Positions 4,890 to 10,608 of a stretch of 27,499 nucleotides of DNA are shown here, piece after piece. The notes under the pieces are model-generated. The model made no database searches. It had not been told where the DNA came from and saw nothing but the letters and a program-made list of their open reading frames with translations. Origin of the DNA: a virus; the IMG/VR virus record IMGVR_UViG_3300044712_000654, positions 1-27,499 of that record; one strand, written 5' to 3'. Position numbers and translations under genes: made by a program. The stretch's first letter is position 1, and the number at the start of each line of letters is the position of its first letter.

Positions 4890-5189
4890 ATGGAAAACGT
4901 AGAATTTGAAGGGTTAGTCATCAAACCAAACCGGGGGGTTTATCGGTGCCCTTGGGGATGTGGTAATCCTGGCTTTCCCCCGCCAAAGTGGAAGACTCCG
5001 GGCGGGATATTGGGCCATCTGAAAAAGTGCCCGAATAAGCCTGATAAGATCGAAAAACCGAAGTCAAAACTTTTCGCCTGTGGCAAGACCTGCCCGACCT
5101 GTGGCGATAGTTTAGCCAAGGATGCGCAGGGGCGCTACACCTGCTTTACGTGCGGGCACCGTGTTTTTCTTGATAGCCGGGGCGGGTGA
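4890..5189 (+). CDS. Zinc-finger protein with C2HC and four-Cys ribbon, 99 residues
   Basis: Two metal sites are visible: Cys20-x3-Cys24 ... His43-x3-Cys47 (a C2HC finger around PWGCGNPGFPPPKWK and GILGHLKKC) and Cys68-x2-Cys71 ... Cys85-x2-Cys88 (zinc ribbon, with an extra Cys64). The linker is rich in Lys and Pro. Such proteins usually bind DNA or RNA. Start ATG 4890 has GGAG (4878-4881) upstream. It is the first gene behind the 4705 promoter and its leader hairpin, and lies one base from the VapE-type gene, so a role in replication or its regulation is plausible but inferred from position only. Confidence 0.65.
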   Translation: MENVEFEGLVIKPNRGVYRCPWGCGNPGFPPPKWKTPGGILGHLKKCPNKPDKIEKPKSKLFACGKTCPTCGDSLAKDAQGRYTCFTCGHRVFLDSRGG

Positions 5190-5190
5190 C

Positions 5191-6594
5191 ATGGCTACAT
5201 TCTCAGATGATTTTATTCACGCCATGCACGGCCTGCTTATGGCCGGCCTTTCCCCCGAAGAAATCACTCCGCCAAATGGCAACAGCTCTGAATGGGAGCG
5301 CAAAGTTTTTGAAGATGTAGCACAGGTATCAGACAAAGCGCGGCGGGTAAGTATCTTCAATCAGTACATTGTCAATATCCCCGAGAGACAACAACTCCAG
5401 GAACTTGTATTCAACCCGCCCGCGCGTAAAGGGATCGTGGATTACATCGGCGCGAAAGGGGAGAAATCATTCAAGAGCGCCAATTATGTTGACGTGCTGG
5501 CGCGCCTGGGTTACGAGTTCAGGCAATGCGATTTAGACGACTCAATCGAAGTCAATAAGCAGCCTGTTTCAGACACGGTAGAAGCCGAGATAAGAGCGCG
5601 GTGCAGAGATATAGGATTATCCAAACTTCAATACATGCGCGATGCCTATGTCATGGAAGCGGCAAAAAACCACTATAACCCAATCTTAGATTATCTCAAT
5701 TCGCTAACATGGGACGGCGTAGACTGGATTGAAACGCTGGCCTGTCACCTCGTGGATGAAAATGATTTGATGCCGATCCTGTTACGGCGCTGGCTAATTG
5801 GAGCCGTCGCAAGGAATTTTCAAGAGACACAGAATAGAATGTTAGTTTTGGATGGTAAGCAGGGCATTGGCAAGAGCCGCTTTGTATCCTGGCTGGCTTC
5901 ACCACTACCAAAACATTTTCACGAAGGGGAAATAAGAACGGACGATAAGGATTTCAAGATCCTTTTATCCAACACCTGGATTTGGGAAGTCTCAGAACTC
6001 GGCAGCACAATCAAGCGCTCTGACATCGAAGCGCTAAAAGCATTTTTGACCATGGGGCGGATAAATGTAAGACCGGCATTTATGAAAAACTCCATAGATA
6101 AAAAGGCCATCACCAGTTTTATCGGAACCGTCAATAACATTGGCGGCGTACTCAATGACGCCTCGGGCAGCCGTAGGTTTATGGCTACAACACTGACAAA
6201 CATTGACTTTGACTATGTAAAAATCGATATAAACCAGATTTGGGCGCAAGCCGTAGCGCTATACAAGGCAGGCGAAACCTGGCAAATCGAAGGCGAGGAG
6301 CGCGCGCTCGTGGATCAGGCGAACGATAAGTACGAGACGGAGAATCCGGTCATTGACCTGATAAACAAACGATACGATATTGATGTAACTCGAACCGATT
6401 GGTTTACATCCACGCTGGATTTAGTAGAAATGCTCCATTCAAACGGATGGGGAAGCCACAGTCCAGTGGGCGAGGCCATGATATTAGCCAGCGCTTGCAA
6501 GTCAATCGGACTGCAAAAAGCTTTTATCGGTGACAGCAACAAAACCCGCAAAAAGGGTTATTTAGGTATAAATGCCAAGCTTTTACAAGGCTAG
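5191..6594 (+). CDS. VapE-family (virulence-associated E) P-loop protein, replicative helicase-like
   Basis: The 467-residue protein fits the VapE/PF05272 family. After an N-terminal region (1-165) comes LDYLNSLTWDGVDWIETL (~170-190), Walker A GKQGIGKS (222-229), Walker B-like WIWEVSEL (263-270), and a GSRRF arginine-finger-like motif (326-330). Family members in phages and satellite islands act as superfamily-3-like helicases or primase partners in DNA replication. Start ATG 5191 follows GGGGCGGGTGAC; a longer in-frame reading from 5122 runs inside the upstream gene and is less likely. The stop TAG 6592-6594 lies within the first iteron of the candidate origin, and a primase-polymerase follows, supporting a replication role. 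Confidence 0.8.
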   Translation: MATFSDDFIHAMHGLLMAGLSPEEITPPNGNSSEWERKVFEDVAQVSDKARRVSIFNQYIVNIPERQQLQELVFNPPARKGIVDYIGAKGEKSFKSANYVDVLARLGYEFRQCDLDDSIEVNKQPVSDTVEAEIRARCRDIGLSKLQYMRDAYVMEAAKNHYNPILDYLNSLTWDGVDWIETLACHLVDENDLMPILLRRWLIGAVARNFQETQNRMLVLDGKQGIGKSRFVSWLASPLPKHFHEGEIRTDDKDFKILLSNTWIWEVSELGSTIKRSDIEALKAFLTMGRINVRPAFMKNSIDKKAITSFIGTVNNIGGVLNDASGSRRFMATTLTNIDFDYVKIDINQIWAQAVALYKAGETWQIEGEERALVDQANDKYETENPVIDLINKRYDIDVTRTDWFTSTLDLVEMLHSNGWGSHSPVGEAMILASACKSIGLQKAFIGDSNKTRKKGYLGINAKLLQG

Positions 6595-6788
6595 TCGAAC
6601 TAGTCGAACTGAGGTCGAACTACTTTTTAGCATACTTTTTTACCACTTCTATAGAAGAGAACCCAATAGTAAATTATAAGCAGTTCGACTAGTTCGACTA
6701 GTTCGACCTTTTTCAAAGTCAGCGGAAAATTAATTAATCACCGGCGCTAAGTTCAAAAAAAGCCTACCTAGTCGAACTACCCGAACTA
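6592..6788 (+). other. Candidate replication origin: inverted 9-mer iterons around an A+T-rich dyad
   Basis: Three copies of GTCGAACT(A) lie at 6594-6602, 6603-6610 and 6614-6622. Three copies in opposite orientation, (T)AGTTCGAC, lie at 6682-6689, 6690-6698 and 6699-6707. One more forward copy is at 6771-6779 and a degenerate one at 6781-6788. Between the arrays is an A+T-rich stretch centred on a perfect 12-bp palindrome CTTCTATAGAAG (6646-6657), whose centre almost coincides with the centre of the whole arrangement. It lies between the VapE-type and primase-polymerase genes. It could instead, or also, be an operator. Confidence 0.6.
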
Positions 6789-6801
6789 AAAGGATAATCC
6801 C

Positions 6802-7668
6802 ATGGCAAATTTACTCACCTGCGCATTATGGTACGCATCAACAAAAGGATGGCATGTTTTCCCGTGCCGTGAAAAAGACGGCCTAATGTGGGTTGATGAT
6901 AAGGGCGTCACGCATTTACCGCGTGCAAAATCTCCCTATGTCAAGTTCGGGCTGAACGTGGCTACTACCGACCGCGGGCAGATTTCCGAATGGTGGCAGC
7001 GCTGGCCTAATGCGGCGATTGGCTGTAATTGTGGCAAGTCGGGTATTTTTGTTTTCGACCTGGATCGCAAAGACGGCAAAGACGGCTGGGCAGTTTTCCG
7101 CGATATGCAAATCGATCACGAAGGCGCGCTGCACAGCGTGACACCCTCGGGCGGTATCCACATCGTTTACAGCGGGCACGGCAAAAGCTCTTCAAGTCCT
7201 GCCGGGTTGGATACGCGCGGCGATGGCGGATATATTATTTTGCCGCCGTCTGAGATTGAAGGAAAAGGCGATTACTTTGCATCTGATGACTGGCGGAGAA
7301 CACCGGCACCGGTTGACCAAGCGGTATTAGAGCGCTTATTCCCCGCTCATCCGGCACCCGTTCAAAGGGAATACCCTGCGCTATCTCCAGACGAAGAGAT
7401 TCAAAGAGCCAAAAAAGCCATTGACGCCATATCACCAGTCAGGGCGCAAAACTATGATGAAAAAATGAAAGTCGGTATGGCGCTTACAAAACTGGGCGGG
7501 CAGGGCCTGGAGCTTTTCCACCAGTTCTGTAAAAAGGATTTGCGCCCTGGAAAATATATCCCCGCTGAAATTGACGAACACTGGCAGCGCATCCAAAATA
7601 CATCCGTGACGCTCGGCACCCTGTTTTATTTTGCCAGACAAGACTCGCCGAATTGGAACGAAAGATGA
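6802..7668 (+). CDS. Bifunctional DNA primase-polymerase with PriCT_2-like C-terminal domain
   Basis: Residues 1-170 match the archaeo-eukaryotic primase-polymerase type of PF09250: WYASTKGWHVFPCREKDG near the start, the acidic pair D86-L-D88 in FVFDLDRKDG, TPSGGIH (114-120) and DTRGDGGYIILPPS. Residues about 190-285 (SPDEEIQRAKKAIDAISPVR, NYDEKMKVGMALTKLG, LGTLFYFARQ) look like PriCT_2, found C-terminal to primases. The protein would make primers, and perhaps extend them, at the phage fork. It is short (288 residues) because no helicase is fused; the neighbouring VapE-type protein could supply that. ATG 6802 has AAAGGAT upstream, right after the last iteron. Confidence 0.85.
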   Translation: MANLLTCALWYASTKGWHVFPCREKDGLMWVDDKGVTHLPRAKSPYVKFGLNVATTDRGQISEWWQRWPNAAIGCNCGKSGIFVFDLDRKDGKDGWAVFRDMQIDHEGALHSVTPSGGIHIVYSGHGKSSSSPAGLDTRGDGGYIILPPSEIEGKGDYFASDDWRRTPAPVDQAVLERLFPAHPAPVQREYPALSPDEEIQRAKKAIDAISPVRAQNYDEKMKVGMALTKLGGQGLELFHQFCKKDLRPGKYIPAEIDEHWQRIQNTSVTLGTLFYFARQDSPNWNER

Positions 7669-8316: not shown

Positions 8317-10608
8317 ATGAATGAGCAATTAGCCAAGTTTATCGAGAGCAAGAAACTACGCGCGCACTTCTATGGCAAGGAAATCTCCCCCGCCGACGTG
8401 CATCCGCTCCTGAAGGATTTCCAGCGCGATGTAGTTGTCTGGGCTGTGCGCAAAGGTCGCGCCGCCGTGTTTCTGGATACCGGCCTAGGAAAGACCTATG
8501 TCCAGCTTGAGTACGCGCGCCTGATGGGTGAAAAGACCTTGATCATCGCCCCGCTATCCGTGGCACGTCAAACTGTCAGGATGTCAGCGAATATCGGTGT
8601 ATTTGTGAAATACGTCCGCCATCAGAGCGAATGCACAGAACAAATCAGCATTACGAATTATGAGATGTTGGATGAGTTTGATCCTGCCGCCTTCGGTGCG
8701 ATCGTGTTGGATGAAAGCAGCATCCTGAAATCCCTGGACGGCAAAACCAAGCAGAAGATTTTGACATCCTTTTCCGAGACATCTTATCGCCTGGCTTGCA
8801 CGGCTACACCAGCCCCGAACGATGAAACCGAGATTGGAAACCATGCCGAGTTCCTGGGCGTGTGTTCGTCGAACGAAATGCTGGCCATGTTCTTTATTCA
8901 TGCCAATAAGGTCAGAGAGATTGACGCGGGAAATGGCGACATTCTGAAAATCAAGCAATCCGGCGACAAGGGCCAGGAGTGGCGCTTGCGTAATTACGCG
9001 CGCGATACCTTTTACGAGTGGATGTCCAGCTGGAGTATTTTGCTACGCAAGCCGAGCGACCTGGGCTATTCCGATGAAGGTTATGACCTGCCGGCGCTGA
9101 ATATCAAGCCGATATTTGTCGATGTGGATTATGTCCCTGATGGGCAGTTGTTTTTCATAGGCCTGTCTGGTATTCAGGAGCGCCATGAAGTCAGACAGGC
9201 GACTTTGGCCGAGCGCGTCAAGGTTGCTGCTGATCTGGTCAATAACTCGGATGAGCAATGGCTCGTGTGGTGCGGCTTGCAATCCGAAGGTGATGCGCTC
9301 GAAAAGGCTATCAATGATGCGGTGCAGGTGCAGGGCTCGGATGCTCTCGAGCACAAGATCAATGCCATTCAGGATTTCCAGGATGGGAAATCGCGCGTTC
9401 TGATCACGAAGCCGAAAATCGCAGGATTTGGGATGAACTTCCAAAACTGCCACAATATGATCTTTGTCGGCCTATCCGATAGCTGGGAAGCCTATTACCA
9501 GTGCATCCGTCGCGAATGGCGCTTTGGGCAGATGTTCCCGGTCAACGTCTTTATTATCCTGTCCGAAGTTGAGCGCGAAATTTACGCGAATGTCATGCAA
9601 AAAGAAGCAGTCGCTAAACGGATGAGCGATGAACTAATCGCTCGTCTGAAAAAACTCGAGAAGGATGAGATTATGAACAAAGTTATCGCAGTCAAAGAGT
9701 ATCAGGAAAAGACCGTAAAGGGGCGCGATTTTACCGCCATGCTCGGGGATAGCTGCCAGCGTCTGGGCGAGATTGAAGAAAACTCAATTGACCTGTCCGT
9801 ATATTCTCCGCCTTTTGCTGATTTATACACCTACTCCGCCAGTGAATTGGATCTCGGGAACTCGAAAGATTGGGATGAGTTCTTTGAGCATTACAAATTC
9901 ATCATTCAGGAAATCCTGCGCGTGACAAAGCCCGGGCGCATGACCTGCGTGCATACTTCGGACATCGCCGCTATGTCGATGAAAGATGGTTACATCGGTA
10001 TGCGTGATTTCCCTGGCGCGGTCATCGAGGCCTATTGCGCCGAAGGCTGGCATTTCTTTGGTCGCGCGATTGTGACCAAGAACCCGCAGGCGCAGGCCAT
10101 CCGCACAAAAGCCCATGGCTTATTATTTGCCACGCTTCGCAAGGACAGCGCCAATAGCCGCCCGGCCATCCTTGACCATATTCTTATCTTCAAGAAGCAG
10201 GGCGAGAACGAAGTACCTATTTTGCCAGTGGACAACGGCGAAATTGATAACGAGCGCTGGATTGATTGGGCTGGCGGGATCTGGACCGGTATCAGTGAGA
10301 GCGATACACTGCAATACACGACCGCACGTGCTGCGGATGACGAGAAGCATATTTGCCCACTACAGTTGGGCACCATTGAGCGCTGTATAAAGTTATACTC
10401 AAACCCCGGCGAAACAATTCTCACGCCATTCATGGGCATTGGTTCGGAAGCTTACCAGGCGCTGCGCTTCAATCGCAAGGCCATCGGGATTGAGTTGAAG
10501 GAGAGCTATTTCAATATCGCCGTGAAAAACTTGCAAGGCGCGGAAAGCACGTACAAGAACGATTTATTCTCGTTCATCCAGACCGAAGAAACCACCGAAG
10601 CGGAATAA
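8317..10608 (+). CDS. SNF2-like helicase fused to N4/N6 DNA methyltransferase
   Basis: The N-terminal ~450 residues are a superfamily 2 translocase: LLKDFQRDVVVWAV (Q-motif-like), Walker A DTGLGKT (54-60), motif II D132-E-S-S, CTATPAPND (motif III), and a C-terminal RecA lobe with KPKIAGFGMNFQNC and a YYQCIRREWRFGQ arginine motif. The last ~310 residues are a methyltransferase with YSPPF (496-500) before LTPFMGIGSEAYQAL near the C terminus, the SPPY-first order of beta-class N4-cytosine/N6-adenine enzymes. It may methylate phage DNA against host restriction while translocating. ATG 8317 has AAAAGGAG upstream. An internal AAGGATGAG plus ATG 9673 could give the methyltransferase alone. Confidence 0.85.
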   Translation: MNEQLAKFIESKKLRAHFYGKEISPADVHPLLKDFQRDVVVWAVRKGRAAVFLDTGLGKTYVQLEYARLMGEKTLIIAPLSVARQTVRMSANIGVFVKYVRHQSECTEQISITNYEMLDEFDPAAFGAIVLDESSILKSLDGKTKQKILTSFSETSYRLACTATPAPNDETEIGNHAEFLGVCSSNEMLAMFFIHANKVREIDAGNGDILKIKQSGDKGQEWRLRNYARDTFYEWMSSWSILLRKPSDLGYSDEGYDLPALNIKPIFVDVDYVPDGQLFFIGLSGIQERHEVRQATLAERVKVAADLVNNSDEQWLVWCGLQSEGDALEKAINDAVQVQGSDALEHKINAIQDFQDGKSRVLITKPKIAGFGMNFQNCHNMIFVGLSDSWEAYYQCIRREWRFGQMFPVNVFIILSEVEREIYANVMQKEAVAKRMSDELIARLKKLEKDEIMNKVIAVKEYQEKTVKGRDFTAMLGDSCQRLGEIEENSIDLSVYSPPFADLYTYSASELDLGNSKDWDEFFEHYKFIIQEILRVTKPGRMTCVHTSDIAAMSMKDGYIGMRDFPGAVIEAYCAEGWHFFGRAIVTKNPQAQAIRTKAHGLLFATLRKDSANSRPAILDHILIFKKQGENEVPILPVDNGEIDNERWIDWAGGIWTGISESDTLQYTTARAADDEKHICPLQLGTIERCIKLYSNPGETILTPFMGIGSEAYQALRFNRKAIGIELKESYFNIAVKNLQGAESTYKNDLFSFIQTEETTEAE

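Follow-up and report, generated by a model that had tools for sequence, protein, structure and literature searches.

We have analysed a viral DNA record from IMG/VR over its full length of 27,499 nt (referred to as the window) and conclude that positions 6593-6788 very probably constitute the replication origin, or a principal one, of a tailed phage, with an SaPI/PICI-like layout and with the helicase VapE as the initiator. The region harbors seven 9-mers of the form (R)GTCGAACT and one additional degenerate copy, arranged as facing arrays around an A+T-rich core between the genes for VapE and a primase. An earlier note on this DNA had regarded the region as a candidate origin, and comparative evidence now lends strong support to this reading.

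Gene content of the window and anatomy of the iteron array

The record stems from a tailed phage. Its rightward genes encode terminase large subunit, portal, minor head, scaffold, major head and head-tail adaptor proteins, while the leftward genes are those for a RecT-like protein, a zinc-finger protein, VapE, PrimPol, an HNH protein and a helicase-methylase fusion. The fusion is encoded in one ORF (8317-10608, 763 aa) that combines an SNF2-type helicase with an N6/N4 DNA methylase. A gene for a pentapeptide-repeat protein with a DUF5758 C-terminus (3-563) is truncated where the record begins. For vapE, a start at 5191 rather than at 5122 is most likely. The features of the origin region and its flanking genes are the following:

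5191..6594, plus strand: VapE-family initiator helicase, 467 aa (PF05272, E 1.7e-45; AF2 models; best Foldseek match PriRep1, 7PDS)
6593..6622, plus strand: iteron arm 1, three RGTCGAACT units, GTCGAACTA (6594-6602), GTCGAACTG (6603-6611) and GTCGAACTA (6614-6622); the first unit overlaps the VapE stop codon
6623..6680, no strand: A+T-rich core, putative melting region, 58 nt, 72% A+T
6646-6657, inside the core: 12-bp palindrome CTTCTATAGAAG
6681..6708, minus strand: iteron arm 2, three inverted units at 6681-6689 (one mismatch), 6690-6698 and 6699-6707
6709..6769, no strand: second A+T-rich stretch with AATTAATTAAT, about 63% A+T
6770..6788, plus strand: iteron arm 3, directly 5' of the primase gene, one full unit (6771-6779) and one degenerate unit, CCCGAACTA (6780-6788)
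6802..7668, plus strand: PrimPol-type primase (Prim-Pol and PriCT_2; PF09250, E 2.1e-27; PF08707, E 5.4e-13), likely primer maker

The iteron unit, RGTCGAACT in its best form, is repeated head-to-tail with a pitch of 9 nt that is broken once, by a 2-nt insertion in arm 1. Three forward units are followed by the 58-nt A+T-rich core, three inverted units and one and a half forward copies, after which the primase gene begins. The repeats, core and palindrome that the earlier note had described are all in place, and so is the overlap of the first iteron with the VapE stop codon.

Taken alone, the repeats of the window are of moderate significance. Elsewhere in the 27.5 kb the iteron word recurs in three further copies with one mismatch and in no more. 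Matches with at most one mismatch number 10 in the whole window versus 3.95 expected, a count reached in 1 of 100 shuffles. The commonest 9-mer of the 199-nt region occurs seven times, and in 300 dinucleotide shuffles of the region the commonest 9-mer occurred six times at most. The inverted-tandem architecture is restricted to a single place in the window (6590-6789, 18 overlapping detections), and 6 of 200 whole-window shuffles gave any dyad at all. Just 0.007% of all 58-mers in the window have a G+C content below that of the core at 6623-6680.

The earlier note had also predicted a change in GC skew, and none is seen as an inflection at the site in the window. Averaged over 24 related loci, GC skew increases from 0.054 in the 2 kb left of the VapE stop to 0.106 in the 2 kb right of it (Wilcoxon p 0.0065); this small family-wide rise is not decisive and may reflect coding bias.

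Facing arrays downstream of vapE in related loci

Profile scans of IMG/VR yielded 166 usable VapE loci, 82 of which remained after clustering at 70% identity. A fixed dyad test was applied that asks for a tandem pair of 8-mers with a pitch of 8-12 and, at a distance of 25-140 nt, an inverted tandem pair that faces it. With this test, the composition filter, pitch and gap limits of which were loosened once after missed loci had been inspected, 39 of the 82 non-redundant loci have a dyad between -30 and +330 nt relative to the VapE stop as compared to 0.05 expected from shuffles of those regions, and together with these relatives the significance of the repeats is overwhelming. Only about a dozen dyads occur elsewhere across all 527 kb. 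An earlier version of the test had returned 34 of 82 loci, its composition filter having dropped some real words. Roughly half of the VapE loci do not pass the strict test; among them, L054, L066, L067, L083 and L099 contain repeats visible by eye, and L029, L034 and L035 are without repeats near VapE. A match to the HMM for the VapE C-terminal domain is only weakly associated with the presence of a dyad (Fisher p 0.045), possibly since distant versions of the domain escape the HMM.

Over 26 iteron-bearing loci, most pitches are 9 and core lengths range from 41 to 77 nt (median 60); in all but one locus (25/26) the array begins with an iteron situated between -18 and +39 nt from the VapE stop. 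The iteron word itself varies between lineages, while the pitch of 9 and the core length stay constant. This lineage specificity explains why a search of viral contigs with the exact iteron pattern of the window returned no other contig; a scan of genome contigs led to a single relative, L036. In L004, the VapE of which is 73% identical to that of the window, facing arrays reside at the same place and consist of a different word, GGTTGATTA. L005 and L006 (VapE 33-34% identical over the alignment) feature AGTGCAGAT arrays with no primase downstream, and L005 contains a primase-like ORF upstream that lacks a Pfam hit. The array also stays 3' of vapE where PrimPol is fused to VapE (L021, L048) and where another primase-type N-terminus is fused to it (L030-L033). 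In four named tailed phages, i.e. Paenibacillus phage Jacinda, StauST398-2, Adelaide and Enterococcus phage phiFL4A, iteron clusters are located in a non-coding gap of 285-340 nt after vapE, and such clusters were looked for after vapE in phages Haddon, P738 and Aval without success. Relatives that keep VapE often keep the arrangement as well, and the objection that the earlier note had envisaged, a loss of the repeats in relatives with both flanking genes retained, therefore fails.

The neighborhood of the arrays is variable and bears on the question of whether the repeats could be operators, by means of which VapE or another phage DNA-binding protein regulates the primase operon without any origin function. 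It is true that the array of the window fills the gap before a gene, that arm 3 lies just 5' of the primase start and that autoregulation is frequent among initiators. However, no promoter-like site was found on the plus strand between 6400 and 7000, and the at least seven sites in facing arrays around an A+T-rich core are more than an operator needs. Furthermore, the array remains 3' of vapE when a different gene follows (L005, L006, L027), and the same anatomy is annotated as the origin of phage Sfi21 and defines the origins of PICIs. We therefore consider a purely regulatory function improbable; a dual role as operator and origin may apply. Short-repeat arrays also mark centromere-like and recombination sites, and the site could in principle serve partition, packaging or recombination and follow vapE by chance. 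This is extremely improbable given that the VapE-specific arrangement recurs in 39 of 82 loci with varied neighbors, that the genes identified next to the array in the window include none for partition or a recombinase and that the packaging genes are about 8 kb distant.

The earlier note had placed emphasis on the palindrome, which finds no support: relatives do not conserve CTTCTATAGAAG, and none of the core boxes reaches significance family-wide. A TATATGAAG-like core box is common to several close relatives and was dismissed, as its family-wide occurrence is not above that in shuffles (best core word in 12 of 27 loci versus shuffle maxima of 9-14). The idea that all iterons begin with RGT in one orientation was likewise discarded because the orientation of the arms flips in some loci.

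Some loci feature further peculiarities. In L040, inserted sequence shifts the arrays to about +820 to +1000 from the VapE stop, where they are still located directly 5' of the PrimPol gene. In L050 and L055, a separate ORF extending from the VapE stop to +268 and +274, respectively, encodes a second, stand-alone VapE C-terminal winged-helix domain, and the iterons follow after that ORF. These cases were initially candidates for a split VapE, which was rejected since the HMM shows that VapE retains its C-terminal domain and that a second copy follows. The stand-alone domain could be a copy-control element or a competing iteron binder. In L027, ACAACAAT units at 9-nt spacing are present past the iteron arrays, at about +217 to +270 from the VapE stop.

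VapE as the candidate iteron-binding protein

VapE, the primase and the zinc-finger protein encoded at 4890 had all been named in the earlier note as possible binders of the 9-mers. Our data favor the first of these and not the other two. AlphaFold2 predicts a C-terminal helix-helix-helix-hairpin domain for VapE, corresponding to a winged helix at about residues 386-462 with a predicted recognition helix at 425-439; modeled alone with 23 sequences, this domain reaches a pLDDT of 84.6. Its nearest solved folds are winged helices, i.e. the RFX DNA-binding domain and PadR regulators, albeit with weak E-values, and the origin-binding domain of phage P4 (1KA8, E 0.28) appears further down the list. 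The best PDB match of the whole model is SaPI PriRep1 on dsDNA, 7PDS (Foldseek E 8e-18 over 441 columns), deposited under the name 'Similar to D. nodosus vapE'. The A2 and A3 profiles match 7PDS at 2e-31 and 1.5e-75, respectively.

When VapE from the window and from L004 are compared, identity amounts to 87% in the helicase core, 57% in the C-terminus and 36% in the last 27 residues, a divergence expected if the iteron words differ. Across 28 loci, iteron distance follows C-terminal distance given the core (partial Mantel r 0.25, p 0.0004), while the helicase core given the C-terminus is not significant; the permutation removes shared ancestry only in part and the iteron words were picked semi-manually. 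Among all positions scored, residue 430, which falls within the predicted recognition helix, exhibits the strongest association with the iterons (z 6.9), closely followed by residues 426, 428, 416 and 448. Core positions such as 143 and 359 score high, too, indicating that shared ancestry persists in the residue signal. In descriptive terms, RxNAM-like helices accompany most GGTTGG-type words, and for TGTTAC-type words the helices are mostly ExD(T/S/A)RR-like. The covariation of residues and iterons, as read from sequence comparison, is strong, not conclusive, evidence and, in conjunction with the predicted winged-helix fold, supports the VapE C-terminal domain as the putative specific iteron binder.

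It is also conceivable that the site is an origin in which the primase, the zinc-finger protein or a host factor binds the iterons and VapE acts solely as the helicase. The PrimPol gene is located 3' of the array in most close relatives, and the zinc-finger gene resides just upstream of vapE. Yet in the 19 loci with downstream PrimPol, PrimPol similarity contributes nothing once the VapE C-terminus is known (partial Mantel r -0.07, p 0.75), whereas the C-terminus given PrimPol yields r 0.39 (p 0.0002). Some repeat-bearing relatives have a replacement for the primase, a primase fused upstream or no primase at all, arrays persist without a downstream PrimPol, a relative of the zinc-finger protein was found in L004 only among the relatives searched, which disfavors it as a general binder, and iteron similarity is most strongly associated with the recognition helix of VapE. 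A binder other than VapE thus appears very improbable.

Proposed mechanism and significance

The SaPI Rep protein uses its C-terminus to bind iterons that lie just 3' of its own gene, apparently in the form of two hexamers (PMC7581432). By analogy, we propose that VapE would contact the 9-nt iterons of the window with the winged helix at its C-terminus and form two hexamers that face each other, one on each arm. It would then melt the core of about 60 nt, load itself onto the exposed strands and unwind the DNA. PrimPol would lay primers, and the remaining replisome, of host or phage provenance, would join. The data establish the anatomy, its conservation and its tie to VapE and the VapE C-terminus, along with a predicted fold, and from these we infer binding, melting, hexamer loading, priming and origin activity.

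Facing 9-nt arrays just 3' of the VapE stop codon provide candidate origins for many phages with unmapped origins. The window and its relatives exhibit the layout in phages with structural genes of their own, and the replication modules of satellites and phages therefore probably form one pool. We regard it as evenly balanced whether the PICI-type origin, rather than being peculiar to satellites, serves as the standard origin in a large class of tailed phages that have VapE-type helicases, its 9-letter word changing rapidly together with recognition-helix residues 426, 428 and 430 as a readable origin-recognition code. If true, the code would determine which co-infecting phages and satellites are compatible in their replication. 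The pairing of iteron word and recognition-helix residues would be a concrete specificity code that is open to test. Neither the phage-wide occurrence nor the residue-word pairing was found described in the literature searched, which excludes most subscription journals and is therefore weak evidence.

Comparison with known origins

Iteron plasmids and lambda-type O origins share with the window iterons that adjoin an A+T-rich element. Iterons of iteron plasmids are about 17-22 nt long, in contrast to the unit and pitch of 9 nt found here, and in lambda-type O origins the iterons reside inside the initiator gene, whereas those of the window begin at the VapE stop codon. The window differs from both in that its arrays face each other and are located 3' of the gene. 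The alpha protein of phage P4 is a helicase-initiator with a C-terminal origin-binding winged helix, to which the VapE C-terminus bears a weak fold resemblance (1KA8, E 0.28 only). P4 has two separate sites, ori and crr, and a fused primase, and differs from the window in both respects.

In SCCmec, Cch2 is a candidate self-loading helicase, the C-terminal domain of which binds AAGTG repeats downstream of its gene (PMC7581432). By analogy, VapE may resemble Cch2 in using the helicase C-terminus as the binder of repeats 3' of its own gene. Cch2 differs in being a D5-type helicase with a different primase and in having three 5-nt direct repeats instead of facing 9-nt arrays.

The comparison with SaPIs and PICIs is based on the literature and on the record of Streptococcus phage Sfi21. 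In Sfi21, the annotated origin is a 302-bp phage-inhibitory element 3' of a D5-type helicase gene, and just as in the window, tandem repeats (8 nt, TTAGTTACTTAGTTACT) are followed by an A+T-rich core, inverted copies and more copies before the next gene. The Sfi21 helicase is different (Pox_D5/DUF5906, no VapE hit, BLAST similarity not meaningful), and its PrimPol gene is situated upstream of the helicase gene. From annotated origins with the same layout it follows that this anatomy marks functional origins in at least two related helicase families.

Origins of PICIs always have, 3' of rep, an A+T-rich region with a set of iterons on either side (PMC6092414). The window matches this in its two iteron sets around an A+T-rich region, in the position of the origin directly 3' of the initiator gene, with the first iteron overlapping the VapE stop, in the AEP-type primase nearby and in an initiator helicase that, judged by predicted fold and sequence family, corresponds to the VapE-family PriRep1. 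It deviates in that PrimPol is encoded by a separate gene after the origin and in that a third iteron block is present. PICIs are without head, portal and large-terminase genes of their own, whereas the window is a tailed-phage replicon with terminase, portal and major head genes and not a satellite. Since it combines the features of a PICI-type replicon with its own head and packaging genes, the window is not a PICI, and its putative origin is a new member of the already known SaPI/PICI-type kind.
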